From a virus, in the IMG/VR virus record IMGVR_UViG_3300035698_009910, positions 1 to 50,336 of that record: a DNA stretch of 50,336 bases. One strand, 5' to 3'. The translations under genes and the position numbers were made by a program. The notes below the pieces were generated by a model that saw only the letters and a list, made by a program, of their open reading frames with translations, did not search any database and was not told where the DNA came from. Positions 17,930-47,145 of this stretch are shown here, in pieces; position 1 is the first letter of the stretch; the number at the start of each line of letters is the position of its first letter.

Positions 17930-17941
17930 TTTATATGTATT

Positions 17942-17972
17942 AAAAAGGGGGTTCTGTAAAACCCCCTTTTTA
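17942..17972. terminator. Terminator after the ribonucleotide reductase gene
   Basis: Hairpin with a GGGGGTT/AACCCCC stem bordered by A and T runs on both sides, so it can act in both directions. It lies 16 bases past the stop of the ribonucleotide reductase and before the chosen start of the cupin-like gene. Confidence 0.85.
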
Positions 17973-17987
17973 TTTGAATTACACTTT

Positions 17988-20189
17988 TTAAATCTCACAA
18001 GCCCCACCTGCACATGCTATAGATCCCATTGTATCTATATCTGTATATGTAGGTGAAACAGCTACCTCTTTCCAATTTATCTCTTTCATTTCTCTGTTTA
18101 TTTCTGACCAACGTTTATAGTTATGTACATCTTTTAAACAATAGGTCATTTTTTTTAAATCATCATTAAAGTAATTAGTAGCAAATTTTTTTGCTCTTCT
18201 AATCCAATCTTTTTTGAGAGCGTTTTGAGCGTTCTCTTCTGATATATCTAAACCAAAACCTAATACGGTATCACATGCTTGCCATAAATTAGCAAATACA
18301 TGTAAACCATCAACTATTAAACCTGATGCAAATAATGATGCATCTCCGTACATTTTAGCTATCTCCTTTGGTGTATAAACAGCTACAAATGGTGCTTGGT
18401 TATAATCTCTATCACCTGTTGCAGATAATAAACTTATTCCAGCAAACCATTTTCTATTATTATATATATATTCTTCTACCTCATCCCAATTATCAACATT
18501 AATTGTATTAGATACATTATGTCTGATATATGGTTTTACACAAAGTTCTTGATTAGTACCATATTCAACCCAATTTTGTTGGGTAAGTTTAACTAGTTCT
18601 AATTGTTTAACTCCTAATGTTCCTTCTTTAAATAAAGAACCTTCTGGTGCTTCTGTAGGGAAACTAAATACCCAATCGGTATTATTAGCTGACCAAACAG
18701 AATTTTCTACACATTTAGGATTTGTTTTGGTAAAGAATTTTCCTTCGTCTTCTTCTTTGTTAACTTGCACATTTCTAAAATATCTTTTATAATGATGTGC
18801 ATGTATTCCTGATGCTGTATTAAGTATAACAGAAGAATTACCTTCTGGTTTAACACATGTAGTACGAGCTGCTTGATTAATACCAATAAGCTCTGATACT
18901 TCTTTATTAATCTTTTTGATTAACTCAGCACCTTTTTTTTGTAATTTAGGATTAAATAATAAGTCTGGATTTTGCATCCAACCTGTTATTGAACATCCTA
19001 ATAATGCTTCTCTATCAAATATTTGTTTACTTTCCTTACCAACATATTTAAAGTCAGTATAAGAAGCTTGAAAAGTACCCATAATGGCAGAAGCTTTACA
19101 AGCTAAAAGAAAATCTTCTTCTGTCTTGATTTTCCCACCATTTGTAGTTGTAAGGTTACAACCTTGCCAACCTGATACACCATCCTCTGTTTGAGGATAC
19201 ATACCAATTTCTACACAAGGGTTGTATAGAATATCTTCATCTTCTGACCATACAAAACCAGGTTCTCCCCAATTTTTAACAGACTCCATGATATTTGCAA
19301 ATTCTTCTCTACTTGTTTTATTTTTAATTAATAAAACAGAATTATTACTTCTTGCTCTTTGTGGATTTTTAATATACCAATCTCCAGTTTTTGCATTAAG
19401 CATGTCCTCATCATCTTTAGAGAACAAACATATAGTAGCAGAACGTCTAACACCTCCACTAAGGACAGCATCTGACAAATGCATAACAACATCATAAGCT
19501 ACAATTGATCTAAACTTACCATCAAATAAATCAGAATTAATTTCTTTATCTAATAATTCTTGTATTTTAATTAATGATGTTCTTAAACCGTCTGGGCCTG
19601 GTGCTTTAAAACCACCAGAAATCATAGAGCCTTTTGCTCTAATTTTACTAAAATCAAAATCTATTCTATATCCTTTGTATTCTTCAAACTCAGATTTATC
19701 TAAGTAAGAAGCCAATAGTATTCCGATACTATCTGACCAGCCTTCAATACTATCTGGAATAACAAACGTTTTAACGCCATTATTTCTATTTTTTATTAAT
19801 TTAGGTAATTTATTTATGTGTTTATTTTGTACACTAAATCCTACACCACATCCTGATAAAAGCCAATACATACATTCTTGAAAGAATTTTGGTCTATCAC
19901 AATAACTAGTAAGACAATTGTACATTTTTGAATTGTGTTTTAAAATAGGAGCACCTCCAAACTGTAAAGATCTTTGTGAGCCTAATATTAATTTTTCTTT
20001 ATATGCTTTTTTTGCTACATTAAAGTATTCATAAAATATTTTTTTATCTGTTACTTGATTTATTAATTTATCGTAATGCATTTGCATTACTCTATTTACA
20101 GATTCTTCCCAAGTTTCTTTACGACCTAGTTCATCTATATATTTTGAATATGAGGATTGAAATTTATATTTAGCTAATATTTCTGACAT
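17988..20189 (-). CDS. nrdJ: Class II (adenosylcobalamin-dependent) ribonucleotide reductase
   Basis: The 733-aa length fits the monomeric ribonucleoside-triphosphate reductase type known from Lactobacillus leichmannii (739 aa), which reduces NTPs to dNTPs with a B12-derived radical. Visible features: MYNC followed by SGCGVGFSVQ near residue 105; NPCVEIG at about residue 322, with a second cysteine in GWQGCNLTT; and CVKPEGNSSVILNTASG. The C-terminus ends CAGGACEI, matching the mobile C-x4-C redox pair of this family. No second subunit gene is needed and none is seen. It would make dNTP supply depend on B12 from the host. It is followed by its own terminator and preceded closely by an unknown gene. 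Confidence 0.9.
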   Translation of the reverse strand: MSEILAKYKFQSSYSKYIDELGRKETWEESVNRVMQMHYDKLINQVTDKKIFYEYFNVAKKAYKEKLILGSQRSLQFGGAPILKHNSKMYNCLTSYCDRPKFFQECMYWLLSGCGVGFSVQNKHINKLPKLIKNRNNGVKTFVIPDSIEGWSDSIGILLASYLDKSEFEEYKGYRIDFDFSKIRAKGSMISGGFKAPGPDGLRTSLIKIQELLDKEINSDLFDGKFRSIVAYDVVMHLSDAVLSGGVRRSATICLFSKDDEDMLNAKTGDWYIKNPQRARSNNSVLLIKNKTSREEFANIMESVKNWGEPGFVWSEDEDILYNPCVEIGMYPQTEDGVSGWQGCNLTTTNGGKIKTEEDFLLACKASAIMGTFQASYTDFKYVGKESKQIFDREALLGCSITGWMQNPDLLFNPKLQKKGAELIKKINKEVSELIGINQAARTTCVKPEGNSSVILNTASGIHAHHYKRYFRNVQVNKEEDEGKFFTKTNPKCVENSVWSANNTDWVFSFPTEAPEGSLFKEGTLGVKQLELVKLTQQNWVEYGTNQELCVKPYIRHNVSNTINVDNWDEVEEYIYNNRKWFAGISLLSATGDRDYNQAPFVAVYTPKEIAKMYGDASLFASGLIVDGLHVFANLWQACDTVLGFGLDISEENAQNALKKDWIRRAKKFATNYFNDDLKKMTYCLKDVHNYKRWSEINREMKEINWKEVAVSPTYTDIDTMGSIACAGGACEI

Positions 20190-27743: not shown

Positions 27744-27940
27744 ATTTTTGGTATTATATTTGAAAAGTATAAAGATATAATGTAATCAGTAACATGATAA
27801 TTGTGAAAACTATAAAATTGATCTTTTATATCTGTTATATCAGTAGAACAATAATATTGACCAAATCCTAATGCTTCACAATATTCTATTTCTTTTATTA
27901 CATCACATAAATCTGTATACTCTGCTCTTAAGTTATTCAT
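27725..27940 (-). CDS. Small hypothetical protein, 71 aa
   Basis: Lies between the SF2 helicase and the zinc-knuckle gene with short overlaps on both sides. Tyr/Ile-rich, acidic at the N-terminus (TDLCDVIKEIEYCEALGFGQYYCSTD). No known family recognised; position implies the replication operon. Confidence 0.5.
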   Translation of the reverse strand: MNNLRAEYTDLCDVIKEIEYCEALGFGQYYCSTDITDIKDQFYSFHNYHVTDYIISLYFSNIIPKICTIYY

Positions 27941-29117
27941 TTTTTAATTTTTCTAAACAATCTTCAACGTTAGTACATGTTATAAAATTAACATCTTCTT
28001 TATTAAACATTTTATTAAACCATACTTCTTCTTGTGTATTTTTAGTTACAAAAACAAAAAGATTACCTATTTTTTCACCGTTTTTACGTAAACGTCCTGA
28101 CCTTTGTATAAAATCTTTAGTTTTACTATAATAACTCATTAAAATTACGTTATCTAATTGATTTAAATTAATACCTTGTGTTAACTTTTTAAATGATCCT
28201 ATTAAATCAATTTTGTTTTCTTCAAAATCTAATTTAATTTTATTATTAATTGTATTAGTATTTCTAGAACTTACAACATTTTCAGTTATTTCAAGTAAAG
28301 AATCAATAGAATTAGCAAATAAAAGTGTTTTATCATCTAAACCTTTTATTAACTTTTTAACTTCTTTAATTTTAGATGGAAGTTTGTATAATATATCAGA
28401 TCTTTTTTTACTAGATTGTTTAATTACATGATCTTTAATACCATCGTCTTCTAAAAAAGCACCATTAAATTTATTATTCCAGAATTCGTAATTTTTAAAT
28501 TCTGTTGTATAAAAAGGTTTACTTACATTACCAGCTTTCATAATTTTCATTACTTTATCTAAATGATGTTCTATTATGTAGACTTTTAATTTTCTAGCAA
28601 CTCCGTCATTTTGAGCTTCTTTTAATGTATAATTATAACATACTGGTGCAATAGAGTCTAAGTAATAACCTTTAGTAATTCCATTACCATATAATGTATC
28701 TCTATCTACTGTAGCAGATAAACCAATTATATTAGTAAAACAATTATTTTCATAAAATTGAAAGTAAGAAGGTGTTAAACTATCATGTATTTCATCAGCA
28801 ATTACTAAATCATATACATTATATTTAAGTTTGTATGCAGATTGATATGTTTTATAAATTATTTTATAATCATTAAAAATATTAATATTATAAATTACAT
28901 TATATAATTGTATTTGTTTAATTATATCAATTTGTCTATCTATTACTTCGTATAAAAATATAATTGTTGAACCTTTTTTCATGCTACTTAAAGCATGGAG
29001 AGCTACAAATGTTTTACCAGAACCAGTAGCCATTTCTACAGTTCCTTTTCCATCCGCATTTTTCCACGCCTTAAAAGCATTTAAACATATTGTTTCTTTT
29101 TTTTTATCTATTTCCAT
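27933..29117 (-). CDS. SF2 DNA/RNA helicase
   Basis: A 394-aa superfamily 2 helicase. Motif I is ATGSGKTFVAL near residue 32, motif II is VIADEIHDSL (DEIH box) near residue 108, and motif III is GLSATVDRD. Motifs V/VI appear as LTQGINLNQLDNVILMS and FIQRSGRLRKNG. The shape fits the UvrB/RecG/type III-restriction-like branch of phage helicases, such as T4 UvsW. Possible roles are branch migration, origin melting or RNA unwinding. It overlaps the next gene's start by one base. Confidence 0.9.
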   Translation of the reverse strand: MEIDKKKETICLNAFKAWKNADGKGTVEMATGSGKTFVALHALSSMKKGSTIIFLYEVIDRQIDIIKQIQLYNVIYNINIFNDYKIIYKTYQSAYKLKYNVYDLVIADEIHDSLTPSYFQFYENNCFTNIIGLSATVDRDTLYGNGITKGYYLDSIAPVCYNYTLKEAQNDGVARKLKVYIIEHHLDKVMKIMKAGNVSKPFYTTEFKNYEFWNNKFNGAFLEDDGIKDHVIKQSSKKRSDILYKLPSKIKEVKKLIKGLDDKTLLFANSIDSLLEITENVVSSRNTNTINNKIKLDFEENKIDLIGSFKKLTQGINLNQLDNVILMSYYSKTKDFIQRSGRLRKNGEKIGNLFVFVTKNTQEEVWFNKMFNKEDVNFITCTNVEDCLEKLKNE

Positions 29118-29866
29118 TAGTCCATTGCATAATCAAATTTAGATTGATGACTCCTTTTTTCCATGCGTTTAGTATAAGCTTTTTCTCTATCAAATGTATT
29201 CATATAACCAATTTTTGGAAAATTAGTTCCATGTTTAGGACAGTTATCTCCTAAAAAACTAGTATTAGAAAAATACAAACCTGACAATTTATCATGAACC
29301 CAATCACCTAACATAGTAATAGGTGTATTTAAACCTGTTTTAGATTTTGGATGCATTATTGCTATTCTAGACCCAGTAATTAATGGGTTTATCATTAACA
29401 TTTTTTCTTTTTTTTGCAAATAACTTAGTATTGTTAACATATTAGGGTCATCTAAATTATCTTTAACAAAAAGATAAGTGTCTGAAAAAACTTTATTTGT
29501 ACCATATTTATGAATTGTACCATTGTGTGACATAACACCTTTTTTTACATAACCTTCTTCAGTTACTATTTCATCATGTATATTTGAACACACATAAGGG
29601 TGACAATTCTCAATATTTCTAGCACCAGCAGAAACTTTTCTAAGATGAATCATTATTTCATCTTTTTTATTTGGTTTGTGTGATTTAATAGCATTAATAA
29701 AAGATTTTAAATCCATATAACCTTTTGAAATGTATATATCTTTATTTGGTTTTTTGATAGAAAATCCAAATCCATCTCTATTTCTCAATGAATAAGATCT
29801 AGAAATGCTTTTATACAATTCATTTGTTATTTCTATTCCCTTTTTTTTAATTATAATTAAACACAT
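29117..29866 (-). CDS. Class II glutamine amidotransferase-like protein (249 aa)
   Basis: The protein begins MCLIII, giving an N-terminal cysteine nucleophile after Met removal, the hallmark of class II (Ntn) glutaminases. YSLRNRDGFGFS, IHLRKVSAGAR and MSHNGTIHKYG match the substrate-binding strands of GlmS/PurF-type domains. It would release ammonia from glutamine or hydrolyse a gamma-glutamyl-type amide. No synthase domain follows, so a partner must use the product. This is the last gene of the amidoligase cluster, abutting the SF2 helicase. Confidence 0.8.
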   Translation of the reverse strand: MCLIIIKKKGIEITNELYKSISRSYSLRNRDGFGFSIKKPNKDIYISKGYMDLKSFINAIKSHKPNKKDEIMIHLRKVSAGARNIENCHPYVCSNIHDEIVTEEGYVKKGVMSHNGTIHKYGTNKVFSDTYLFVKDNLDDPNMLTILSYLQKKEKMLMINPLITGSRIAIMHPKSKTGLNTPITMLGDWVHDKLSGLYFSNTSFLGDNCPKHGTNFPKIGYMNTFDREKAYTKRMEKRSHQSKFDYAMD

Positions 29867-29870
29867 AAGT

Positions 29871-31439
29871 TTAGCTTTTGATTATTTCTCTAGTTTTAGT
29901 TGCATTATGTTCAACATTTTCACTATATTCTAATTTTTCATTAGCAATACCTATTTTTCCAGTAAATCTTTTTTTTCTTTCATCAAAATATGATGTAAGT
30001 TTTTCATTATCTACTTTAGATTTACTAAAACCAAAATTTAAAATATCATTAATAGTGATTTTTTCATTTTCTAATATTGATTTACTATTATTTTCTACAA
30101 AATAAGTAAATGCCATACAAAATAATGTCCAATTTTTAATTTTACTAAAATTCATACTAGCACTATGAGGTCTAAATTCAAGAGTTAATGGTACACCTTT
30201 ATCAGGTTTACTATTATCAATATGTGCATTTCTAGTGTTAAAATTACAAGGTATTAAATTAAACCATTTGTAACGATAAAGATGTTCTAATGCTACACCA
30301 TTACTATATCTATCTGTATATCTACCTCCTGGATGTGGTGTAAATTTATTTATTTTTTTACCAAGTTCACGTCCTTTAACATGATTAGCATTAGCCATGT
30401 CTTTGTATAACTCTTCATAAGCAATAGAAACACCATATTTTTCACCGTGTTCATCAATGTATTTTTTAAAATCCCATTTTTTAAGACCACTAGTGTAATC
30501 ATTGTTTCTTCTAGATGGTGGAAATATTTGATATATTTCTTTTTCAATTTTAAGAGCCAACATATAACTAAATATTGTAAACTTTTCATTAAAATTTGCA
30601 CCACCAATATGAACATGTATACCACATTTGTTACTAATGTTACAATAAGAATTAATAGCTTTAACAGAACGATAAAGATTAGCTAAACCAGCATCGCCTT
30701 TTAATACACCTGTTACATATTCACCACCATAAACATTATTATCTTCATCTCTTAACGATCCATCATGTACAGCATCTAAATTTAAATGAGCATTACGATA
30801 TATAAAATCTGGTATTTTTCCACTACAAGTTTCTATTTCTACACCAAAAGTATATTTCATACCACCAGTTCCTATAGTAGAACCTGTCATTACACCGTAA
30901 TTAATCGCTTCTTTTTTACTATTAAATTGATCGCTATTAGAACGAGAATTTTTAAATTTTTTATATTGTATTTTGTTTGTTGTTTTTTTAACAACATCTT
31001 TTTTTGGAACTAAAGAATTATGTTCACAAGAAATAAAAAATCCTTTTTTATTTGCTAATTCCATTGTTTCAAATAAAATATAATTAGATTCATTTTTTCC
31101 TTGTAATAGGCAATTATATTCTTTTTCACCTATTTCATCCATTATATTTTCTCTATCACCAAATTCTTTTACTGTACCGTTTTTAAAATATACTTTAATC
31201 ATGTCATCTTTATGATAATAATTATTATTAATTTTTATGCAATCTTCTTTTATAAATAAAATATATTCATAAGAATAATTTTTATTTAATTTTTTTACAA
31301 CTAAAGGGGGGTTATTTTTTCTTGAATCATAAAAAATACCGTCAATACTTATTGCTAAGTATGACGGTATTTTTCTATTTAAAGAGTCAATTACATAATC
31401 TTCTTTTTTTTTAGTTCTTATGTTTGCCCAATTTGTCAA
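29871..31439 (-). CDS. Amidoligase-family protein with extra N-terminal domain
   Basis: A 522-aa protein. From about residue 195 it shows the glutamine-synthetase-like amidoligase pattern: YTFGVEIETCSG, AVHDGSLRDEDNN, GGEYVTGV, NKCGIHVHIGG and PLTLEFRPHSASM. These Glu, His and Arg positions would bind Mg-ATP and a carboxylate, forming an amide bond. The first 190 residues are a separate strand-rich region of unknown function followed by a Ser/Asn/Lys linker. It lies between two class II amidotransferases with tiny gaps, implying a shared pathway. The substrate is unknown. Confidence 0.8.
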   Translation of the reverse strand: MTNWANIRTKKKEDYVIDSLNRKIPSYLAISIDGIFYDSRKNNPPLVVKKLNKNYSYEYILFIKEDCIKINNNYYHKDDMIKVYFKNGTVKEFGDRENIMDEIGEKEYNCLLQGKNESNYILFETMELANKKGFFISCEHNSLVPKKDVVKKTTNKIQYKKFKNSRSNSDQFNSKKEAINYGVMTGSTIGTGGMKYTFGVEIETCSGKIPDFIYRNAHLNLDAVHDGSLRDEDNNVYGGEYVTGVLKGDAGLANLYRSVKAINSYCNISNKCGIHVHIGGANFNEKFTIFSYMLALKIEKEIYQIFPPSRRNNDYTSGLKKWDFKKYIDEHGEKYGVSIAYEELYKDMANANHVKGRELGKKINKFTPHPGGRYTDRYSNGVALEHLYRYKWFNLIPCNFNTRNAHIDNSKPDKGVPLTLEFRPHSASMNFSKIKNWTLFCMAFTYFVENNSKSILENEKITINDILNFGFSKSKVDNEKLTSYFDERKKRFTGKIGIANEKLEYSENVEHNATKTREIIKS

Positions 31440-31440
31440 T

Positions 31441-32790
31441 TTATTCTTCTTTTATATCCACATTAATTAATTCTTGAAATTCTGCAATTTCTGAAGATAA
31501 TTCTACTATTTCATTTTTTATATCATGTACACCAGAGGCATTAACATAATCAGCAATATTACTTACTTTAAGACTCATTGATTTAATGATTTTACTTAAT
31601 TCTTTATATCCTAATTGAATAAAAAAGTCATCTTCATCTTCATCATCTTCTTCGTCGTCATTTAAGTAATCAAAAGGGGTTATGTCATTTTGCTCAATTT
31701 CTAACAAACCCTCGCGCTTTTTTGCAACAAAGTCCCAAAAATCTTCCCCTAAATCATTATCCATATATACTAATCTTTTTAAGACAGTACCAGATTTAAA
31801 TTTTCTAGAGTATGTAAAAACACTTAATGTTTCATTATATTCACAAACTGAACTAATATATTCATCTTTTGCATGTTTTGTTCTTACAATTAAATCTTCT
31901 TCACCTGTTGCATATTTATATAACATACCTTTTTCATTTTTCATAAAAACAGAAGAAATAGGTTTTTCTTTTGTTAAAATATGATATTTAAAATGAGATT
32001 TTGAAATATTTAAATATTCCAACATGTCTTTAGACATTTCAGCACAATTTTTATATCCACTAAGTTTAGCAACACTATTTACATTATTAATTATTTTTGG
32101 TGAATTTACAATTAAATCTTCAGAAATAATTTTACCATCAACTATTTGATAATGTTTATTTATTGTAAAAGCTTTAATATCTTTACACATAATCATATCT
32201 AATGGAAATTTTTCTGATGAAATATACATATCATCATCAACATAACCATAATGTAAAGGTCTATCATTATTTTTCCAAATATGTAATATATCTTCTTTAT
32301 CACGATTATCTCTCCAAATTAAAGCTGCTGCTCCATCAAAATCTTTAAGTACTTTAAAATCATTTAAAACATTAAAATAATGAAAGAAAAGTTTAGAATC
32401 CATTGTTACTACTTTATCATTGAAAGATAATTCTGGATTTTTTTCATTATATTCTTTTAATAAACGTTTATGATTTTTTAATGTACCATTATGAGCACCT
32501 ACTACATTATCAAACATAAATGGATGAGCATTATCTAATGTTTTTTCACCAACTGTAGCAGCTCGTGTATGACCAATAAATAATTTATCTGGTTTAGGAT
32601 TAAATCTAGGTAGCATTGTTTCACTAACCTTTCCTATTTCTTTAAATAATCTATTTTTAAATTCAAAATTTTTATTTTCAGAATAATAACCTGACGAATG
32701 TATACCTCTTGTTTCATTTGCAAAAAACAAAAGACGTATAAGGTGCACATTGTAATTGTTTTTACCTGAAAATCCTAATAATCCACACAT
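31441..32790 (-). CDS. Class II glutamine amidotransferase-like protein (449 aa)
   Basis: Starts MCGLLGFSGK, the exact N-terminal Cys-Gly-x-x-G of GlmS/PurF/AsnB-type glutaminases. GIHSSGYYS, FIGHTRAATVGEKTLDNAHPF and VVGAHNGTLKNHK complete the glutaminase domain (about residues 1-230). The C-terminal half (about 230-449) is not a recognisable sugar isomerase, phosphoribosyl transferase or synthetase; it ends in an acidic stretch (DDEEDDEDEDD) and a helical tail. It is probably the ammonia source, or an amide hydrolase, of the cluster. Confidence 0.85.
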   Translation of the reverse strand: MCGLLGFSGKNNYNVHLIRLLFFANETRGIHSSGYYSENKNFEFKNRLFKEIGKVSETMLPRFNPKPDKLFIGHTRAATVGEKTLDNAHPFMFDNVVGAHNGTLKNHKRLLKEYNEKNPELSFNDKVVTMDSKLFFHYFNVLNDFKVLKDFDGAAALIWRDNRDKEDILHIWKNNDRPLHYGYVDDDMYISSEKFPLDMIMCKDIKAFTINKHYQIVDGKIISEDLIVNSPKIINNVNSVAKLSGYKNCAEMSKDMLEYLNISKSHFKYHILTKEKPISSVFMKNEKGMLYKYATGEEDLIVRTKHAKDEYISSVCEYNETLSVFTYSRKFKSGTVLKRLVYMDNDLGEDFWDFVAKKREGLLEIEQNDITPFDYLNDDEEDDEDEDDFFIQLGYKELSKIIKSMSLKVSNIADYVNASGVHDIKNEIVELSSEIAEFQELINVDIKEE

Positions 32791-32793
32791 ATT

Positions 32794-33180
32794 TTAATTT
32801 TTTTTTGTTATTGGGTTACAATAGTCCCCATTATAAATAATTGAATTACCTTCATCATCATTAAAATAAAGTGCAGCTTTTTCTTTATTGCCGTCATCTA
32901 ATGTAATATCAATAATTTCTCTTTTATACCAAGAACCATTATGGTTATTAGGATCATATCCTTCTAACATATCAAGTCTTTTTAATTGTTGATCTGTTAC
33001 TTCATATACTTCACCAACCACTTGAGAAGTACTTTTAGATTTAGATACATAAGGAAGACCTCCTGCTGTTAAATGATATTTATTAGTTGTTTTTCCTTTA
33101 CCTATAAAGACAGTGTCTTCTAAAAGACGATTGTTACCTCGTCCTTTACGTAAAGTTCCATATACAAATACTTTAGGCAT
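32794..33180 (-). CDS. Gamma-glutamylcyclotransferase-like protein
   Basis: A 128-aa protein with the AIG2/GGCT signature VFVYGTLRKGRGNN at the N-terminus, GLPYVSKSKST, VVGEVYEVTDQQLKRLDMLEGYD (carrying the catalytic-type Glu) and WYKREII. Family members release 5-oxoproline from gamma-glutamyl amines or peptides. In this cluster it may trim or cap gamma-glutamyl linked products made by the ligases. Four bases separate it from the preceding GATase gene, and it overlaps the ATP-grasp gene by 8. Confidence 0.85.
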   Translation of the reverse strand: MPKVFVYGTLRKGRGNNRLLEDTVFIGKGKTTNKYHLTAGGLPYVSKSKSTSQVVGEVYEVTDQQLKRLDMLEGYDPNNHNGSWYKREIIDITLDDGNKEKAALYFNDDEGNSIIYNGDYCNPITKKN

Positions 33181-34030
33181 ATTCTTTAATAAGTTTTGGT
33201 AGCATATCAGCGTAAGCTTTTGCTACATAAGTTTCTAATTGATTTGTTTCTTTATCACCAAAACTTGGTGCAGAATTAATTTCTATAATTTTAAAATCTG
33301 GATTGTTTCTAACATTACCTTCTTTGTCTTTACTTGATTGTACACGTACATCACAAGCTCCAAAATCTAATCCTACTGAATGCATTGCTTTAACACATTC
33401 ATTAACAATAATATCCCAATTTTTTGGTTTATCAAAGTTTTCATTAGATTCTAAATACCAAACACAGTTAGTATCATTTTTAAACCATTTTTTATCATCT
33501 GGTGTATCTGATTTAATCATTTTTCTACATGTATAAAAACATCCATTTTTATTAACATGTATACGATATTCTCGAATACCACTGAAATATTCTTCATAAA
33601 GATAATTCTTACCTTTACCACTTTTTAAAAAAGCTTGAAGCTCATCAACAATATTAAATTTAATCATACCTCTACCTCTTGAACCATAAACAATTTTACC
33701 AATAATAGGGAATGATAGTTCCTCTAAATTTTTTGGTAATGTTGTCCACCATTTACATGTATTTATTTTAGCTTTATCAAAACAAGATTTCATCTTAATT
33801 TTATTGCTAGAATTTTTGATAGCTTCAACTTTATTTAACTCAACATGTATTTTCTTAACTCTTTTTTTATTATAAGTTTCTGTATCTGTTTCACTACCAA
33901 AACGAATAACTGTTCTAAATTTAAATAAAGGTAATGCTTTATATTTACTTCTTAATACTTTGTGAGAAGGGTGTCTACTAAGTATGAGTGGTCTAAATAA
34001 AGAAATAACTTTAACTGGTTTTCTTTTCAT
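33173..34030 (-). CDS. ATP-grasp ligase (RimK-like)
   Basis: A 285-aa protein with ATP-grasp landmarks. KSCFDKAKINTCKWW holds the first lysine region and FPIIGKIVYGSRGRGM the second lysine plus glycine-rich loop. YLYEEYFSGIREYRIHV is the adenine edge, VGLDFGACDVRV a metal-side Asp, and FKIIEINSAPSFG the ExN metal motif. ATP-grasp enzymes activate a carboxylate as acyl-phosphate and join it to an amine, as in RimK. The start may lie a little inside, since the first residues are basic. It probably adds amino acids to a peptide or protein within this cluster. Confidence 0.85.
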   Translation of the reverse strand: MKRKPVKVISLFRPLILSRHPSHKVLRSKYKALPLFKFRTVIRFGSETDTETYNKKRVKKIHVELNKVEAIKNSSNKIKMKSCFDKAKINTCKWWTTLPKNLEELSFPIIGKIVYGSRGRGMIKFNIVDELQAFLKSGKGKNYLYEEYFSGIREYRIHVNKNGCFYTCRKMIKSDTPDDKKWFKNDTNCVWYLESNENFDKPKNWDIIVNECVKAMHSVGLDFGACDVRVQSSKDKEGNVRNNPDFKIIEINSAPSFGDKETNQLETYVAKAYADMLPKLIKEYA

Positions 34031-34853
34031 GTAATCTAAAATTTTTTATATTAGATGTATAATTTTTACTACCGTCTGTTACAACAATAAGCATTGATCC
34101 AGAATTTTTAATAGTTGTTACTGTTTTATATACGTTACCATATATTAAACCTGTTCCTTTATCATACCTAATCATTTTAACATTGTCGTTTTTTTTAAAC
34201 AATTTTTTAGCTATAATAATTTCATATATTTCATCAAATGGTATTGTGTATACTGAATTATGACCTTCATCTGTAATGTATATAGAATCTTCATCATTTA
34301 TTAATTTGCCATTAAAAAATTGAAGACTTCCAGATTTGTCAATATATTTAAAAATACCATTACGTTTTTGTTCAAATAATAAAAAATTAAAATCAGAATC
34401 TATTTTTAATTTTTTAATTTTTACTTTATTATTATATAATTCTGTATTTATAAGACCAACTGGTACTGTTTCTGGTATATTATCATTAAAGTATTTTCCA
34501 TTACGATACCATTGATTATGAAAATGATAAATATTACTATTTCTATCTATATGTGCATATCTAATATCAATAGCATTTAAAGATGGAAAATATACTTCAT
34601 TATAATTAATATATTCATGTGAATTAATAAATAATATATTTTGTTTCACATCAATTTTTTCTATAGTAATAATATCTCCAGCACTTAAATTTCTATGAAG
34701 TGCTTCTTTTATACTTCTTACTTTAATAGCTTTATGTAATCTTAATGTTTCACCATTTTTATACTGATCTAATGTTTTTATGCCTTTTAATTTTAAAAAA
34801 GATAAAAATAAATCATTTCTTGTTTTATTATTAGTCTCGTTGTACTTTAACAT
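34011..34853 (-). CDS. Hypothetical protein in the amidoligase cluster
   Basis: I place the start at the ATG at 34853, which gives a 23-base overlap with the upstream ligase gene. An earlier ATG at 34967 would overlap it by more than 130 bases. The protein is about 280 aa and strand-rich. The C-terminal part (NDNVKMIRYDKGTGLIYGNVYKT, IVVTDGSKNYTSNIKNFRL) resembles a small SH3-like barrel. The middle has a HIDRNSNIYHFHNQWYRNG segment. I do not recognise a family; its place between two ligases suggests a carrier, scaffold or substrate. Confidence 0.6.
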   Translation of the reverse strand: MLKYNETNNKTRNDLFLSFLKLKGIKTLDQYKNGETLRLHKAIKVRSIKEALHRNLSAGDIITIEKIDVKQNILFINSHEYINYNEVYFPSLNAIDIRYAHIDRNSNIYHFHNQWYRNGKYFNDNIPETVPVGLINTELYNNKVKIKKLKIDSDFNFLLFEQKRNGIFKYIDKSGSLQFFNGKLINDEDSIYITDEGHNSVYTIPFDEIYEIIIAKKLFKKNDNVKMIRYDKGTGLIYGNVYKTVTTIKNSGSMLIVVTDGSKNYTSNIKNFRLHEKKTS

Positions 34854-35640
34854 ATTGTTGAATATATTTAATGTTGTGTTCTTTAGAAATATCCATTGCC
34901 ATTTTTTTATTATTTGTATCAATAGCAGTACGAATCGAATCTGAGAATTCTTTAATTTTATTTTCATTATTTACAAAATCTATCGCAAGCATTGTTTGAT
35001 TAAAAGCCCATTCCATTAATTCTTCAGATTTAAGCCAAAAATTACTTAATGTTCTGTATTCTAAACCATAATCTGTAATTCTAAATCTACCAGATTTTCC
35101 ATAAACATTTTTACGATCTTCATCTTCATCCATAATTACAGCAGGTACACCTAAAAACAAATCCATTGCTTTAACTATACATTCTGTAATTTCAACTGTT
35201 GGATTATCATAACTAATATGAATATGTCCACCAGCATAACGAGTATTTTTTTCTGGTTTAATTTCAGGATATTCACATTCTAACCAAACATTAAAATCAA
35301 CAGAACATCCAAATTCTTTAGCTTGATCTGTACTTAATTGCTCATCTGTAAATTTAATAGAAGGAACAATTGCAATATCATAATTAACTCTATTTTTAAT
35401 AGTAGCTAAACAATAAGCAATTTCTCTTTTTAATCTACCAACATCTCTTACTGGTGGAATATTAAATTCTACCATTACATTATCTTCTTGTAATGAATGT
35501 CCTTCTTCACTAATTGGAATAGGTTCTTCTTTAGTTCCACCAATTAAACCTTCTGATGATACAGCTTTACCTTCTTTATCTATTAAAAATACCTCAGGGT
35601 CTGCACCAAATGCATTAAATTCTACTATTTTTTTAGACAT
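34831..35640 (-). CDS. Phage-type COOH-NH2 ligase (amidoligase superfamily)
   Basis: A 269-aa protein with FGADPEVFLIDKEGK near the N-terminus, VMVEFNIPP, RYAGGHIHISYD and DYGLEYRTLSNFWL. This is the signature of the phiEco32-like COOH-NH2 ligase type 2 branch of the amidoligase superfamily. The Glu of GADPE, the HIH pair and the ExR are the expected metal- and ATP-binding positions. It would form an amide between a carboxyl and an amine using ATP. It is of a different subfamily from the ligase at 29871, so the cluster has two distinct amidoligases. Confidence 0.85.
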   Translation of the reverse strand: MSKKIVEFNAFGADPEVFLIDKEGKAVSSEGLIGGTKEEPIPISEEGHSLQEDNVMVEFNIPPVRDVGRLKREIAYCLATIKNRVNYDIAIVPSIKFTDEQLSTDQAKEFGCSVDFNVWLECEYPEIKPEKNTRYAGGHIHISYDNPTVEITECIVKAMDLFLGVPAVIMDEDEDRKNVYGKSGRFRITDYGLEYRTLSNFWLKSEELMEWAFNQTMLAIDFVNNENKIKEFSDSIRTAIDTNNKKMAMDISKEHNIKYIQQYVKVQRD

Positions 35641-35674
35641 ATTATTTTATATTTGATTTTTTAATAAAAAATTA

Positions 35675-36379
35675 TTAGGCAACAACATTATATTTAGTTT
35701 TCATTAATGTGATTTTGATAATATCTATAAGTTTATTTCTTGTAACATCACTACATGTTGCATATTCAGGATGTCCTTGAATAGCTAAACAATTAGTTTT
35801 TTTGTAATAAACAATTTCTGGTTCTCTAATTACATTATTTTTATCAGCATATGCTATTAAACCAGATTTAACATCAGCAAGATCTGTCATATATTTAATA
35901 GACAAAGGTTTTTCAGCCCATGCGTGTAAAACATAATCAACATCTTCAATTAAATCGAAAAATGGATTCATCATTTGATGATGTGTACTTGTCATATCAA
36001 AAACAGAATCATCATTAAATTTAATATTATGATTCCCACCATGACCAGTAACATCTTGAATAAGTCTACCACCATTCATTACAGTTAAAAATTGAGAACC
36101 TCTACAAATACCCATCATTGGTATTTTATTTTCTCTTGCAAATAAATATGCATCAATATCTACTTTATCAGCATTATTGTCTGGCATATTAGTTGCTGGA
36201 ATTTTTTCTTCACCATAAAGACTTGGGTTTACATCTACACCGCCTTTAAATATAACTAAATCAACTTTATTATCTAATTCTTTTGATATTGTAAAATCTT
36301 TAGCCATCCATCTAATTAATGAACCTGCTTCATGTGTGTATGCTCTTGGGCAATATACATTTATTTTTTTATCCAACAT
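35675..36379 (-). CDS. Class I glutamine amidotransferase / gamma-glutamyl hydrolase-like (peptidase C26 type)
   Basis: A 234-aa protein with FKGGVDVNPSLYGE, MMGICRGSQFLTVMNGG (nucleophilic Cys), STHHQMM and IQGHPEY (catalytic His and Glu). This triad and the VDVNPSLYGE loop are typical of PuuD-like gamma-glutamyl-gamma-aminobutyrate hydrolases and related class I amidotransferases. In phiEco32-like phages a comparable gene accompanies the COOH-NH2 ligase. It probably hydrolyses gamma-glutamyl or other amide bonds. First gene of the cluster; overlaps the upstream unknown gene by 19 bases. Confidence 0.85.
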   Translation of the reverse strand: MLDKKINVYCPRAYTHEAGSLIRWMAKDFTISKELDNKVDLVIFKGGVDVNPSLYGEEKIPATNMPDNNADKVDIDAYLFARENKIPMMGICRGSQFLTVMNGGRLIQDVTGHGGNHNIKFNDDSVFDMTSTHHQMMNPFFDLIEDVDYVLHAWAEKPLSIKYMTDLADVKSGLIAYADKNNVIREPEIVYYKKTNCLAIQGHPEYATCSDVTRNKLIDIIKITLMKTKYNVVA

Positions 36380-36966
36380 AATAATTTTTTTAATGTTTTT
36401 AAATTTTTAGAATCTAAAGCATTTGATATTTTGATAGAAATATCATTATCTACTTTAGTATTAAAAATTGTTTGTAATTTTTTATATTTTATTAATCTTA
36501 ATTTATAAGATTTTAATTTTACTTTTGGTATTATACTATATTTATTATAATCTTTTTTATTACTATAATGAGCTAAAATAAATCTTTCCCACACAGTTAA
36601 CTGTAAATCACTTTGATTTAACCATATCATATTAGTAATAATAGTTTTTCTATTTAAACTAATATAATTAGCTAAAAATGTAGTTAAATAATAACTTAAA
36701 TCATTATGGTCTTTTTTATAAATTAAAATAGATAATCCATCATATTCACAAATAAAACCTAAATCATTTAATGTTTTTACCCATTCTTCAGTTACTTTAC
36801 CTGTATCTCCAGTTATTTCAATAACACTATCATTATCTGATATTTTGACATAATCATGAATAGTTTTATTTAAAAAATCTTTTGTTGTTTTTTCATTATA
36901 ATAAATACATTCTTTTATTATTTTTAATTTTTTATAATCAGATAAAGATATTAATGTTTCAATCAT
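36361..36966 (-). CDS. Hypothetical protein, 201 aa
   Basis: Basic, Ile/Lys/Tyr/Asn-rich protein between the class I amidotransferase and another unknown gene, overlapping both. Contains VIEITGDTGKVTEEWVKTLNDLGFICEYDGLSILIYKK, a beta-alpha-beta-like stretch, and a WERFILAHYS segment. It ends in NALDSKNLKTLKKLLCWIKK. I see no known family; it may belong with the neighbouring short Lys-rich proteins. Confidence 0.6.
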   Translation of the reverse strand: MIETLISLSDYKKLKIIKECIYYNEKTTKDFLNKTIHDYVKISDNDSVIEITGDTGKVTEEWVKTLNDLGFICEYDGLSILIYKKDHNDLSYYLTTFLANYISLNRKTIITNMIWLNQSDLQLTVWERFILAHYSNKKDYNKYSIIPKVKLKSYKLRLIKYKKLQTIFNTKVDNDISIKISNALDSKNLKTLKKLLCWIKK

Positions 36967-37591: not shown

Positions 37592-38566
37592 TTAAAATAA
37601 ACTTAGTTGTTTGTTTTTAATACTATTAATGATTTTCCAGCATTCTTTAATATAATATTGTTTATTAACAAACTTTAAATAATTTTTAGTTTCATCGAAG
37701 TCATTAATTATTATAACTCCATATCCAGCTTCTATTGCATTTAAACGTCCATCTTCATGGTGTTTATAGAATCCATTACCATTTTTGCATATAATATATC
37801 TATTAGTTTTTTGAAGCTTGTTAACACCCTTTACAGTGTGTTCTTCTGCTGTCCAACCTTTAGTTACACTAAATGCTTTCATGTAGTCCCAAATATCTCC
37901 ATTGTTGATTGTATCTTCAATAGGTATATTTTTTATAAAATAATTAAATATTGCTTTACGTACAATTTTCATTGATTGATCTTTATGCCAATCTCTGTCT
38001 ATTTCAAACGCACCTTTACACTTAGTGTCTCCATTAGTATATTCAGCAATATAATTATTTACATCTCTTATTACCATTGTAGAATACTCAGCGTATTCTA
38101 ATTCTAATTTAGTTAATTTTTCCCATGATTTACATATTTTCATAAGTTTATCATAGTACTTTTTTTCTATTTTAACGGTAATACCATCTGTATTAACTTG
38201 TAACATAGTTAAGTTAGGAATTAAATCCACAACTTTTTCTGATAACATAGTTAATAATAATTGACCATTAATAGTTATATCCATTGTAAATTTAGGATCA
38301 TATACAAAACTGTATTCATCATTTGATTTACCATAGACACCATTTAATGCAATTTTAATACCATAATTTTCAGGTGTACCTTTTGCATAGTTTTGTCGTT
38401 CTTTATAAAGATCTTCATAAACTTTACAAAATGTAAGTCCTAAATGTTTTGGATAAAATTGATTTACAATAGCTAGATTTGGATAATATGATTTAACATC
38501 AATATCTATTATTATTTCTGTTTCGGAGTTTTTGTAAACTCCAGGTTTTATACAACCGTGGATACC
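37592..38566 (-). CDS. DNA polymerase B, 3' exon (polymerase palm and thumb)
   Basis: The reading frame continues upstream of the first ATG (38284) to 38566 and carries family-B motifs: DIDVKSYYPNLAI (motif A, about 38480-38520), KIALNGVYGKS (motif B) and LQVNTDGITVK (motif C, NTDG). The piece therefore begins GIHGCIKPGVYKNSETE, not at the ATG, directly after a TAG. It lacks any exonuclease motif; these lie in the other piece (42417-43415), whose end FKYDFGTG joins naturally to GIHGC. The last residues KNKQLSLF look like a sliding-clamp-binding peptide. It needs intron splicing to yield a complete polymerase. Confidence 0.9.
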   Translation of the reverse strand, partial: GIHGCIKPGVYKNSETEIIIDIDVKSYYPNLAIVNQFYPKHLGLTFCKVYEDLYKERQNYAKGTPENYGIKIALNGVYGKSNDEYSFVYDPKFTMDITINGQLLLTMLSEKVVDLIPNLTMLQVNTDGITVKIEKKYYDKLMKICKSWEKLTKLELEYAEYSTMVIRDVNNYIAEYTNGDTKCKGAFEIDRDWHKDQSMKIVRKAIFNYFIKNIPIEDTINNGDIWDYMKAFSVTKGWTAEEHTVKGVNKLQKTNRYIICKNGNGFYKHHEDGRLNAIEAGYGVIIINDFDETKNYLKFVNKQYYIKECWKIINSIKNKQLSLF

Positions 38567-39156: not shown

Positions 39157-40210
39157 GTAGTCTGGACTATCTCATCAACCTTCATCTTCATCAGAATGTT
39201 TTGGAGTTCCCCATTTCATTCCTATTGTGTGACTAGGTTGCTCGTTAAAGTTAAAACCTACCTTGTATTTCATTGAATTTATCATATATGGTTCTAAAAT
39301 TAAAACTAATTTTTTAGTTTCTTTTACATTAAAAGTAAGAAAATAAGATTGTTTCCTATTTTTTCTTTTTGTAACTCTTAATGTTGGAGAAATATTCCAA
39401 ACTTGTTTAAAATACTTAATTATTATATCGTGTTCTTTTTTATTAAAAGAATTTGTATGTAATGACATATAAGCACTTTTACCACGTTTAGTATATGATC
39501 CATCATCCATAAACCATATTGCTAATGACTCTTTGTTTAAATAATTTAACCATTTTCTTTTAACAGCTTTATTATTTTTAGGATATAATACTAATCTAAG
39601 TTGATTAAATAAATTAGGGTCTTTACAATCTATTGTAAAACTTTCACCATAATTATTTGTAGTATCATATAATCTTGATACATTAAATCCTAATTCAATA
39701 AGTCTTTTTTGTTTATGTATAATGTAATCAGTTTGTTTTTTAGAATGTCTAGTACTTAATAAACTATTGGCTTTTTTTAGCCTAGTTTTAGAAATATAAC
39801 TATCTCCTAATACCATTCCTATGATAAAACTTATTTGATTTTTATCATATTTTCCCATATATTTTTTACTCATATTTTTATTCTTTATAATGCTCTACAA
39901 AGATAAACAAAATATTTGTAATATCCAAATCTCACATTCAGTTTTTTTTAGTCTCTACACCGTTTTGTAAAATCATTTTAATTTCATATAATGCATTTAA
40001 AGCAGTTTGATTACCTTTTTCATAATTATTTGAAATTTCTTTAATTTTATCAATTGACGGCACGGGATTGTCTTTTTCAATTTTTTGTTGTTTCATTTTT
40101 ATTAAATTAAGAGTTTCCCCGTCAGCATATATACTATTATTTTTCACGTATATATACCCCTTACGGATTCCGAGTTATTCAATGTATGTTACCATACAAG
40201 GGGGCAGTAT
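39157..40210 (-). ncRNA. Group I intron catalytic core (P, Q, R, S elements)
   Basis: In the minus direction the order is: a structured P2-like region (about 40150-40208, with a TGTATG-GTAA-CATACA hairpin and CCCCTT/AAGGGG stem), element P GACGGGGAAACTC (40111-40123), element Q AATCCCGTGCCGTC (40056-40069), element R GTGTAGAGACTAAA (39947-39960), the endonuclease gene, and element S GAGATAGTCCAGACTAC (39157-39173). R GACTA pairs with S TAGTC (P7), and P ACGGG pairs with Q CCCGT (P4). The endonuclease therefore sits in the P8 loop, a usual place. Confidence 0.8.
39175..39873 (-). CDS. LAGLIDADG homing endonuclease
   Basis: A 232-aa protein with two LAGLIDADG-type helices, FIIGMVLGDSYISK near residue 17 and LAIWFMDDGSYTK near residue 112, each ending in an acidic catalytic residue. 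It is a single-chain, two-repeat enzyme of the LAGLIDADG_2 kind. It would cut intronless polymerase genes and drive intron spread. It is encoded between the R and S elements of the group I core, and its TGA stop touches the S element. Confidence 0.9.
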   Translation of the reverse strand: MSKKYMGKYDKNQISFIIGMVLGDSYISKTRLKKANSLLSTRHSKKQTDYIIHKQKRLIELGFNVSRLYDTTNNYGESFTIDCKDPNLFNQLRLVLYPKNNKAVKRKWLNYLNKESLAIWFMDDGSYTKRGKSAYMSLHTNSFNKKEHDIIIKYFKQVWNISPTLRVTKRKNRKQSYFLTFNVKETKKLVLILEPYMINSMKYKVGFNFNEQPSHTIGMKWGTPKHSDEDEG

Positions 40211-41649: not shown

Positions 41650-42402
41650 TTATTTTTTTAATTTTATACGTTTAGTAATAAGTCTTTTTTTATTAGGATC
41701 AACAATGTGAGATGCTTTTACAAAATAATTTTCATTTAAAACTTTTTTAAATAAAATACTTTTTTTATCATTTAAATAATATACTAATTTATTATTATTA
41801 TCAACTTCTTCACTTGTTTTAGGATGAATAGGTGTAATAAACATATGTATATTAGGAGAAAATGATCTTTTATCATCTGTTTGTTTTAAACTTATATAAG
41901 ATTCATAACCATTACCAATACTTCTACGTTTATCTTTAAATTCTTTTTCTGTTATATTAAAAAATAATATTCTTCTTTTTTTATTAGTAGATTCTTCAAA
42001 ATCAGATTCTAAAAATCCACCACCAAAAGTATATTTTCTATATACTTTTTTATACATTATTAAAAATGTACAATATAATAAAGACCAAGTTTTTTTATTT
42101 TCTTTTAATTCATAAATTTTATCTACAGTTGGGGTATCATCCCAAATATCTCTAAAAAATCTAAAAAAAGAAATATAAAAACCTTTACTTTTGAAATCAA
42201 TTTTAGTTATATTATTGTTAACAATATTAACTTTTCCTTCAAATAATTCTTCAGTTATTTTTATTAAATTTGAAGTTAATGTTGTTGGGATAGTAATAAA
42301 AAATATTTTTGTTTCACTTTTTACATATTTTCTCATAAAATTATCACCACAATTAGTTTTAATTAAATCAAATTCATTATTTACATCATTTTTTATAATC
42401 AT
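41650..42402 (-). CDS. Intron-borne hypothetical protein with CGDNFMRK motif, 250 aa
   Basis: The ATG overlaps the TGA that closes the 5' polymerase exon frame (ATGA), so it could be translated by coupling from unspliced RNA. NCGDNFMRKYV near residue 17 is shared with the gene at 36959-37552, including a 24-base identical run (42330-42353). The rest is basic with SKGFYISFFRFFRDIWDD and HMFITPIHPKTSEEV. No family recognised. Confidence 0.6.
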   Translation of the reverse strand: MIIKNDVNNEFDLIKTNCGDNFMRKYVKSETKIFFITIPTTLTSNLIKITEELFEGKVNIVNNNITKIDFKSKGFYISFFRFFRDIWDDTPTVDKIYELKENKKTWSLLYCTFLIMYKKVYRKYTFGGGFLESDFEESTNKKRRILFFNITEKEFKDKRRSIGNGYESYISLKQTDDKRSFSPNIHMFITPIHPKTSEEVDNNNKLVYYLNDKKSILFKKVLNENYFVKASHIVDPNKKRLITKRIKLKK

Positions 42403-43415
42403 ATTATATTAAGTTTACCCGTTCCAAAGTCGTATTTAAAACCTTTGTAAATTACACTATCTTTAATAGCATTTTTTGTTTCAGAAATAATTGTATTTTT
42501 TAGTTTATTTAATAGAGTAGTAAACTCTACATTTTTATATTTAACATAAGGAAGAATACAATTAGCAAAATTAATATTATCTCTACGTGTTCTTAATTTC
42601 TTAAGATCATATAAATTCATATTTAATTCTTTTGCCATTGATGAAGCAAATATATCTTCTCCCATACCAGCATCTGGCTTATTAATAACATTTATATTAT
42701 ATACTTTACCTATATTTTTACGTAAATCAATTATTTTTTTTGATTTTAAATAAAATTCATAAGTTGAGTCTACATCATTTTTGTTATATAATAGGATATC
42801 TTCTATTTGTTCTTCTTTAATAAAAGTTGTATAATGTAATGGGAGATCTTGAACCTTTTTCCATTTCATTGCTACTTGTAATTTTTTTAAAGATGTTATT
42901 CTTGCTTTGTTATTAAAATGCCAAATTCTAAATAAGTCAACTTGCTTTATTAGAACATATTTGTTTCTAATAGCTGGAAATAATTCACTTATTATTCTTT
43001 GTGATTCTTTGTACAGTTCCTCAACTGAACAATTTTTGTTTGTTAATAAAAAATGTAATAATGGATAATCATAATTAATATTATTAAATCCTATTAAAAC
43101 ATTACATGATTCTAAAAATTTGATATATTCTTTTACATCATTTCTAGCTTTATGTATAACAAACGTTTTATATTCACCTGTATGTATGTTATAAAACATA
43201 CCAGAGTGAAAATTAGGGAATTGTTCTAAATCATATACCCATATACTTTTAAAATTCTGCTTCTTCTCCAAAATCAACAGGTGCTTCTTGTTCTTCAGGA
43301 AATGCTCCTCCGACTTCAAAGATGTTTTCTCTTTCAAAAAGTCTATGTTTTTTTGCATCTTTTTCTCTTGATGCATTTGTATATATGTTATAGATTGATT
43401 CAAACACACACCCAT
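42399..43415 (-). CDS. DNA polymerase B, 5' exon (3'-5' exonuclease domain)
   Basis: Family-B proofreading motifs are present: VYDLEQFPNFHSG (Exo I, D and E), IGFNNINYDYPLL (Exo II) and YNKNDVDSTY (Exo III). The true exon probably ends at 42417 (FKYDFGTG); the last codons KLNII and TGA belong to the intron. The start is unclear. The 5' part of the frame to 43415 overlaps another gene, and its residues before IWVYDLE look like out-of-frame translation. A TTG at 43271 or the ATG at 43358 are alternatives. No polymerase motif A, B or C is here; they are in 37592-38566. Confidence 0.85.
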   Translation of the reverse strand: MGVCLNQSITYIQMHQEKKMQKNIDFLKEKTSLKSEEHFLKNKKHLLILEKKQNFKSIWVYDLEQFPNFHSGMFYNIHTGEYKTFVIHKARNDVKEYIKFLESCNVLIGFNNINYDYPLLHFLLTNKNCSVEELYKESQRIISELFPAIRNKYVLIKQVDLFRIWHFNNKARITSLKKLQVAMKWKKVQDLPLHYTTFIKEEQIEDILLYNKNDVDSTYEFYLKSKKIIDLRKNIGKVYNINVINKPDAGMGEDIFASSMAKELNMNLYDLKKLRTRRDNINFANCILPYVKYKNVEFTTLLNKLKNTIISETKNAIKDSVIYKGFKYDFGTGKLNII

Positions 43416-46287: not shown

Positions 46288-46288
46288 A

Positions 46289-47131
46289 TTAAAATTGTTT
46301 AATTATTTCTAAATTTCCAGGTTGATCTCCTATACTAATATCATCATACATGTGATAATATTCATCAAATTTACTGTTAGTAGTAAATACTTTATCAAAG
46401 TAATTAGTTACTGGATCTACACCTAAATTTTGCACAGTCATATGACTAACAGCTAAGTATAATTTACCACAGTTACGTTCTTTGAGTAATTTAGCTAAAC
46501 CTTTAAAAGTACCACCATAAACAGATATATCATCTACAATAAGAATGTCTTTACCTAAAAAATCTTTTTTACCAATTTTTTGAATTATATTAGATTTTTT
46601 ACCGTAATAACTTCTACTTTTACTACACGAATGAACTTCTCCTTGCCAATCTAATTGATCGCATAATTTCATTAAAGGTTTAAAACCACCTGCATCTGAA
46701 GACATTAAGATAGTATTTTTAGAATTTAATCTAGGCATTTTATTTACATAATCATAATGTCCTAATTTATATAATACTTTTGCTATAAACTCACTATTAT
46801 TAATAATTTCTACATTATCCATTAAAGCTTCTACAACTTCTGCATTATGAGGATGAAATATTTTAAAATTAGCATTCATTCCATTTAGAAACTTACATAC
46901 TAATTTTAAACCACTTGATTGGTCATCAGCAAATCTTCTGTCAGCTTGTGCATCAATAAGATTAGGTATAATAATTAAAGGTTTTAAATTATATTTATTA
47001 TTGTAAGCATCTACAAATTGATTCAAATGCCATAAATCTTCATAAGAATTTAATTTCCAAGTAATAATTTCTTCACCTGAATGTTCTGTAGTAACATAAC
47101 TACTTCCATCTGGATATTTATTTATTTTCAT
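46289..47131 (-). CDS. Ribose-phosphate pyrophosphokinase-like enzyme (Prs/Adps family)
   Basis: I place the start at the ATG at 47131, because a longer frame to 47176 would run into the tRNA. About 280 aa. ADRRFADDQSSGLKLVCKFL corresponds to the Prs catalytic flap region, HPHNAEVVE to a metal-binding loop, and DILIVDDISVYGGTFKGLA to the PRPP-binding motif. Prs makes PRPP from ribose-5-phosphate and ATP; phage relatives called Adps pyrophosphorylate ADP-ribose. It is encoded immediately upstream of the NAMPT-like gene, forming a two-step NAD-making unit. Confidence 0.88.
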   Translation of the reverse strand: MKINKYPDGSSYVTTEHSGEEIITWKLNSYEDLWHLNQFVDAYNNKYNLKPLIIIPNLIDAQADRRFADDQSSGLKLVCKFLNGMNANFKIFHPHNAEVVEALMDNVEIINNSEFIAKVLYKLGHYDYVNKMPRLNSKNTILMSSDAGGFKPLMKLCDQLDWQGEVHSCSKSRSYYGKKSNIIQKIGKKDFLGKDILIVDDISVYGGTFKGLAKLLKERNCGKLYLAVSHMTVQNLGVDPVTNYFDKVFTTNSKFDEYYHMYDDISIGDQPGNLEIIKQF

Positions 47132-47145
47132 TTTTATAATTTTAG

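Follow-up and report, generated by a model that had tools for sequence, protein, structure and literature searches.

For what purpose does a crAss-like phage carry, side by side, a whole set of enzymes that make and cut amide bonds? This question is raised by the viral record IMGVR_UViG_3300035698_009910, a stretch of 50,336 bases that is possibly a fragment and that is called, as a whole, the window below. Between positions 29117 and 36379, eight open reading frames (ORFs) follow one another on its minus strand, seven of them encoding enzymes of amide-bond chemistry and the remaining one an uncharacterised protein. Judging from sequence comparisons, this cluster is almost certainly a phage amidoligase cassette; it is a crAss-like, slightly enlarged member of a cassette already known in phages. 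As to its function, the reading that we favour, with a probability of about 0.45, is that of an early cytoplasmic pathway building and trimming glutamyl-amide bonds on peptides of the host envelope.

A crAss-like copy of a known phage cassette

The eight genes are tightly packed: with the corrected start of the uncharacterised gene, no overlap or gap between neighbours exceeds 34 bases. A preliminary description of the window had placed them at the same positions and assigned them to the same families, and has to be amended for this one start only. From the highest coordinates downwards, the first gene (35675-36379) encodes a class I glutamine amidotransferase (GATase) of 234 residues (Peptidase_C26, E-value 1e-19; GATase class I, 2.4e-10), whose nearest solved relatives, Lin1909, a SpuA-like protein and PuuD, are of the gamma-glutamyl-amine hydrolase type. 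It is followed by a phiEco32-like COOH-NH2 ligase type 2 (34831-35640, 269 residues; PF14395, 1e-12; phrog_3815, 2.2e-64), by the uncharacterised gene (34011-34853, about 280 residues) and by a RimK-like ATP-grasp carboxylate-amine ligase (33173-34030, 285 residues). The latter gives no Pfam match and is recognised through PHROGs (phrog_2599, 'S6 glutaminyl transferase', 1.1e-30) and through its family profile, which matches in the PDB the RimK-type glutamate ligase 7qyr (1.3e-12), as well as cyanophycin synthase, D-Ala-D-Ala ligases and the S6-modifying RimK; the COOH-NH2_lig, GATase_6, GGACT, Amidoligase_2 and Peptidase_C26 families are found directly by profile searches. Next come an AIG2/YtfP-like gamma-glutamyl(amine) cyclotransferase (GGCT; 32794-33180, 128 residues; GGACT, 5.4e-24), placed by profile comparison nearest to the gamma-glutamylamine enzymes GGACT and YtfP, a large class II GATase (31441-32790, 449 residues; GATase_6, 2.4e-13), an Amidoligase_2 protein with a TTG start (29871-31439, 522 residues; PF12224, 3.9e-11) and a small second class II GATase of the GATase_4 type (29117-29866, 249 residues). 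The match of this small GATase is weak on its own (GATase_4, E 0.0024), but a comparison of family profiles by hhalign relates it to the large class II GATases (96%, E 2.6e-9). The COOH-NH2 ligase, the ATP-grasp ligase, the large class II GATase and Amidoligase_2 constitute the core of the cassette, or quartet.

The catalytic residues of all seven enzymes are intact, as judged from alignments of 7-26 sequences per family. The COOH-NH2 ligase keeps its invariant residues E16, E58, H139-x-H141, R176 and E194-x-R196, the ATP-grasp ligase keeps E154, R156, K170, D222, D227, E250 and N252, and Amidoligase_2 keeps E201, E203, E240, H275, H277, R389, E421 and R423. C92, H203 and E205 are all present in the class I GATase, and the YGTL motif and E73 are retained in GGCT. 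Both class II GATases start with Met-Cys, in agreement with the N-terminal Cys proposed for them earlier, and their catalytic positions are kept: C2, R76, the HNG motif (N101, G102) and D131 in the large one; C2, R76, the HNG motif (N115, G116) and D129, invariant in seven sequences, in the small one. Enzyme families and active sites thus both support the initial view of the cluster as a place of amide-bond chemistry.

One way for this view to fail was that the two amidoligases belong to unrelated folds. The predicted model of Amidoligase_2 (mean predicted local distance difference test, pLDDT, 81; predicted template modelling score 0.77) comprises an N-terminal beta-rich domain (residues about 15-145) and then a catalytic domain (about 190-513) with, according to this model, the glutamate-cysteine-ligase/glutamine-synthetase (GCS/GS) fold. 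The catalytic domain matches YbdK-type carboxylate-amine ligases (1tt4, Z 12.0, 237 residues aligned, root-mean-square deviation 4.0; 1r8g, Z 11.3), and the model also matches a plant glutamate-cysteine ligase (Z 11.2), Dop (Z 10.5) and PafA. For Amidoligase_2, these matches speak against an unrelated fold. Foldseek alone returns nothing under E 0.001 for this model (top match YbdK, 1.9e-3); in a library of viral structures, the top matches are cr108_1, phi14:2 and further phage amidoligases. The COOH-NH2 ligase has no sequence match in the PDB, and only a short, weak match to the Amidoligase_2 profile around its H-x-H motif (35.9%), so that its fold assignment rests on Pfam and earlier work. 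As a side observation, an ORF of about 180-210 residues lies between the COOH-NH2 ligase and Amidoligase_2 in the podovirus-type cassettes (loci L017, L019, L020, L029, L030 and L031). Their Amidoligase_2 tends to be the smaller protein, of about 285-350 residues, although it has 567 in L030. From sequences compared by eye, this ORF could be the counterpart of the N-terminal domain that the crAss-type Amidoligase_2 carries.

A cassette of this kind is already known (Iyer et al. 2009 and Hardies et al. 2013, according to PMC5498523 and PMC11945000, which cite them), its carriers including PSA-HP1, RIO-1, phiEco32, LUZ24, PA11 and tf, and has been named 'peptidoglycan modification cassette' (PMC5498523; PMC11945000). 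The known cassette and the window share COOH-NH2 ligase type 2, Amidoligase_2, the RimK-like ATP-grasp ligase, the class II GATase and GGCT; in both, the genes lie on one strand in an early or replication region, and a class I GATase is often found in the known cassette too. The window thus has the features of a member: three ligases, a class II GATase with N-terminal Cys, contiguity, a single strand and a location in the replication region. Unlike the known cassette, it has a small second class II GATase adjoining Amidoligase_2 and an extra uncharacterised gene, and its Amidoligase_2 is of the Crassvirales type, with the N-terminal beta domain. The kinship with the phiEco32 set proposed in the preliminary description is therefore real, the quartet being common to both.

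Among Crassvirales, Cellulophaga phage phi14:2 (Steigviridae) resembles the window by its contiguous GGCT, ATP-grasp, COOH-NH2 ligase, class II GATase and amidoligase genes (g037-g041); in contrast to the window, the class I GATase and the second class II GATase are absent from the stretch examined, and its class II GATase is membrane-anchored (see below). Cellular pathways show a comparable logic: in EgtA/EgtC, GshA/Dug3 and the Puu pathway, a ligase of the GCS fold is paired with a gamma-glutamyl-cleaving hydrolase of the class II or class I GATase fold. These pathways, however, make or use known cellular metabolites, and no such biosynthetic partner is seen in the window.

Conservation of the core and peculiarities of the window copy

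The linkage of the core was assessed in two sets of best-scoring loci, the counts being conditional on the anchor gene: 64 distinct viral loci in which the COOH-NH2 ligase is flanked on each side by 5 kb or more, and 46 loci anchored on the ATP-grasp ligase, with 6.5 kb on both sides. An ATP-grasp ligase, a class II GATase and Amidoligase_2 stand alongside the COOH-NH2 ligase, on the same strand, in 64/64 loci of the first set, where the core has a median span of 6.0 kb and its genes follow one of three arrangements (35, 19 and 10 loci). All four core enzymes are likewise present in 44 of the 46 loci of the second set. As the core is kept on one strand in every locus of the first set, a chance grouping is excluded, and the near-obligate linkage indicates that the four enzymes act together. 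Conserved synteny, rather than the scattered homologues that would have spoken against the initial view, is thus what is found in the relatives.

The other genes are optional: GGCT is present in 51/64 loci, the class I GATase in 48/64 and a second class II GATase in 9/64. Homologues of the class I GATase without the catalytic Cys lie in or adjoin the cassette at L013 (5904-6608) and L028 (15261-16022); they are possible pseudoenzymes, as judged from sequence, and the loss of Cys fits with this enzyme being optional.

Viruses are almost the only carriers of the COOH-NH2 ligase family: 487 relatives lie in viral contigs and just 12 in genome contigs, and these 12 are mostly accompanied by the rest of the cassette, so that the contigs in question may themselves come from phages. 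The ligase is found in isolated phages of Pseudomonas, Escherichia, Vibrio, Aeromonas, Proteus, Salmonella, Alcaligenes, Leptolyngbya and others, and the quartet in the isolated phages Cellulophaga phi14:2, PA11 and Salmonella 7-11. All the named hosts among the database rows sampled have a wall of the Gram-negative type. The suggestion of the preliminary description that the set is richer than that of phiEco32, and may be a new system, is therefore not retained: GGCT and the class I GATase often accompany the quartet, the module occurs in cultured crAss-like and other phages, and a new system is ruled out by the near-universal quartet in relatives and by the prior descriptions cited above.

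Only two genes make the window copy unusual: the uncharacterised one and the additional, small GATase of class II. The nearest contigs (L002/L003, L004 and L005) share with the window an arrangement that begins with the upstream ORF and continues with class I GATase, COOH-NH2 ligase, uncharacterised gene, ATP-grasp ligase, GGCT, large GATase, Amidoligase_2 and small GATase. Relatives of the small GATase (190-290 residues) lie beside or near Amidoligase_2 in the OM43 phage MEP402 (gp06-gp07) and in a Christensenellales phage, like in the window; in these two phages, unlike in the window, the neighbours shown include no annotated ATP-grasp or COOH-NH2 ligase. Since this pair occurs elsewhere without the rest nearby, the window copy looks, from the sequences compared, like the standard quartet plus the added partner of a second, minimal Amidoligase_2/GATase pair. 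As for the uncharacterised gene, a longer ORF starting at 34967 would intrude about 136 bases into the ligase gene, and a start near 34853 is therefore the probable one. Its product has no match in the phage collection and has homologues only in the nearest contigs; its model (mean pLDDT 44) is confident only in about the last 55 residues, residues 220-277 being predicted as a small beta-barrel.

A possible substrate at the membrane

Under the favoured reading, the three ATP-dependent ligases (COOH-NH2 ligase type 2, Amidoligase_2 and the RimK-like ATP-grasp ligase) would act early in infection on a host peptide, attaching glutamate-type or amine groups by amide bonds to its carboxylates. The class II GATases would handle ammonia or gamma-glutamyl groups, while GGCT and the PuuD/SpuA-like class I enzyme might strip gamma-glutamyl caps or recycle side products. 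The likeliest substrate would be the peptide of a peptidoglycan precursor on the cytoplasmic side of the membrane, and the altered new wall could change superinfection or the timing of lysis. Similarly, unusual linkages in peptidoglycan peptides, blocking superinfection or preparing lysis, have been proposed previously (PMC5498523; PMC11945000; PMC10580990), and the cassette genes of phage PSA-HP1 are expressed immediately on infection (PMC7082346). Together with this timing and these earlier proposals, the linkage of the core, the nearly phage-only ligase, the intact sites, the modelled GCS/GS fold of Amidoligase_2, the profile matches of the ATP-grasp ligase, the gamma-glutamylamine enzymes closest to GGCT and to the class I GATase, the Gram-negative hosts and the GATase anchors described below make the envelope reading the one we would tentatively put forward.

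About 46 of some 139 distinct class II GATases of relatives open with a hydrophobic, transmembrane-like stretch of 20-30 residues, usually followed by basic residues and then by the catalytic Cys, without Met before Cys. This is the case in loci L007, L016, L018 and L026 and in about 40 others, the N-terminus of the Cellulophaga phi14:2 enzyme being 'MTIIEIILVALFIHTVGFFLTKKRRINNVIS-CGLFGW'. Where a ligase gene lies directly upstream, the GATase start codon lies no more than some 20 bases from the ligase stop, and the hydrophobic segment is therefore probably translated. In 39 of the 46 anchored enzymes, the flank after the segment is more positive than the flank before it, and the enzyme should thus be on the cytoplasmic side of the membrane. 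No regular N-terminal segment of this kind is present in the other core enzymes. In the tree of GATases, anchored and Met-Cys forms are interspersed, with 28 changes, at least 19 of them forced by well supported branches, and the anchor can differ between close relatives (L065/L054, L066/L068). Class II GATases require a free N-terminal Cys, so that the anchored forms should need cleavage. The presence of an anchor in about a third of the relatives would be indirect support for a membrane-located substrate, such as lipid-linked wall precursors. A more elaborate proposal, which we consider rather doubtful, is that the cassette is a membrane-coupled peptide-conjugation pathway in which a removable GATase leader blocks the Cys until it is cleaved, the window representing, with its soluble form and its small GATase, a distinct branch with a product of its own.

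Several points weigh against the envelope reading. The large GATase of the window itself is of the Met-Cys form, without a membrane anchor, and free class II GATase domains can be either glutaminases or gamma-glutamyl hydrolases. By its PDB profile, the ATP-grasp ligase is closer to the protein-glutamylating RimK than to wall ligases. The wall idea derives from genomic context only, the list of Gram-negative hosts is a sample of rows, and no substrate, product or biochemical test of any cassette member was found in the literature.

Because its ATP-grasp ligase is closest to RimK, protein glutamylation stays a serious rival, even if we judge it unlikely. The ATP-grasp ligase and the two amidoligases would in this case tag a host protein, for instance a ribosomal or transcription protein, with glutamate or a peptide early in infection, the GATases and GGCT trimming the product. 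The top PDB matches of the ATP-grasp family are indeed RimK-type alpha-glutamate ligases, including the S6-modifying RimK, Dop and PafA, whose substrates are Pup and pupylated proteins, are among the matches of the Amidoligase_2 fold, and immediate expression in PSA-HP1 suits host takeover. However, no linked gene for a target protein or a tag peptide is seen, the membrane anchor carried by roughly one large GATase in three is unexpected for a ribosomal target, and the gamma-glutamylamine-type enzymes of the cassette point to small peptide substrates.

Those same enzymes, namely the class I enzyme near SpuA/PuuD-type gamma-glutamyl-polyamine hydrolases and GGCT near GGACT/YtfP, are what could be expected if the cassette handled a soluble gamma-glutamyl small molecule, by a protection and deprotection of the butirosin or Puu type, or if it provided glutamate and ammonia for nucleotide synthesis; its location within a replication block with ribonucleotide reductase (RNR) and ThyX is also compatible with this. 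We hold such a metabolic or salvage role to be slightly less probable than protein glutamylation: three linked ATP-using ligases are costly for salvage, and the hydrolases, being optional, are not the point of the pathway.

Tagging of the virion, by a peptide or an amide cross-link on capsid proteins, had been suggested in the preliminary description and seems very improbable: although the ATP-grasp, GATase and YtfP-like proteins are listed in the SU10 proteome table, this table lists them as early gene products (PMC4281155), expression is immediate in PSA-HP1 (PMC7082346), and structural genes adjoin the cassette in none of the annotated relatives examined. Equally improbable is a hypermodification of the phage DNA, in which the enzymes would build an amino-acid side chain on a modified base. 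In its favour, DNA replication genes surround or adjoin the cassette in the crAss-like and PA11 genomes examined. However, no base-anchoring enzyme, but only ThyX and uracil-DNA glycosylase (UDG), was seen among the window ORFs tested, and HaeIII cuts the DNA of the cassette-bearing phage tf (PMC3517423).

Genomic surroundings and significance

The window comes from a crAss-like (gut-type) phage of the Crassvirales, an assignment made in the preliminary description and supported here by the sequences of its giant plus-strand ORFs. One of them is 28-31% identical to the crAss RNA polymerases of cr112_1 and crAss001, over up to 83% of a 1952-residue piece, and a second one is related to the RNA polymerase-subunit genes of crAss phages. 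The minus-strand genes around the cassette encode RNR, an exonuclease, a RusA-like resolvase, UDG, a primase, Sak4, a DnaB-like helicase and pieces of a DNA polymerase, ThyX and RNR being in the same replication block as the cassette; in cr108_1 and Cellulophaga phi14:2, the cassette stands amid the same replication genes. A ResIII/DEAD-like helicase gene (27933-29117, minus strand) shares a single base with the last cassette gene and probably belongs to this replication block rather than to the amide-bond pathway. On the other side, an uncharacterised minus-strand ORF (36361-36966) also accompanies the class I GATase of the nearest contigs (L002-L005), and its membership in the cassette is unclear. 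Known anti-phage defence genes gave no PADLOC match at E 0.01.

Some other features of the window can be mentioned. The DNA polymerase is in two distant pieces (37592-38284 and 42399-43415, corresponding to PHROG positions about 14-332 and 428-654 of 663), separated by a LAGLIDADG endonuclease (39175-39873) and ORFs of unassigned function; no Rfam intron family matches this stretch. At 44722-47176, a nicotinamide phosphoribosyltransferase adjoins a ribose-phosphate pyrophosphokinase, the two forming an NAD-salvage pair; comparable pairs lie within a few kb of the cassette in Salmonella phage 7-11 and in Leptolyngbya phage Lbo-JY46, in the latter under the annotations PncB and PrsA. Finally, an ORF at 17489-18013, between RNR and small ORFs, matches the PHROG 'cysteine dioxygenase' (1.9e-37) and has no Pfam match.

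No demonstrated product of the cassette was found; crAss-like and unrelated phages nevertheless retain the quartet in nearly every case, and it must therefore be valuable to them. The window copy ties the cassette to a phage group that ranks among the most abundant, and the comparison narrows its core to three ligases and one class II GATase. The membrane anchor of the GATases in relatives provides, in addition, a concrete and testable hint that the substrate may be at the membrane.

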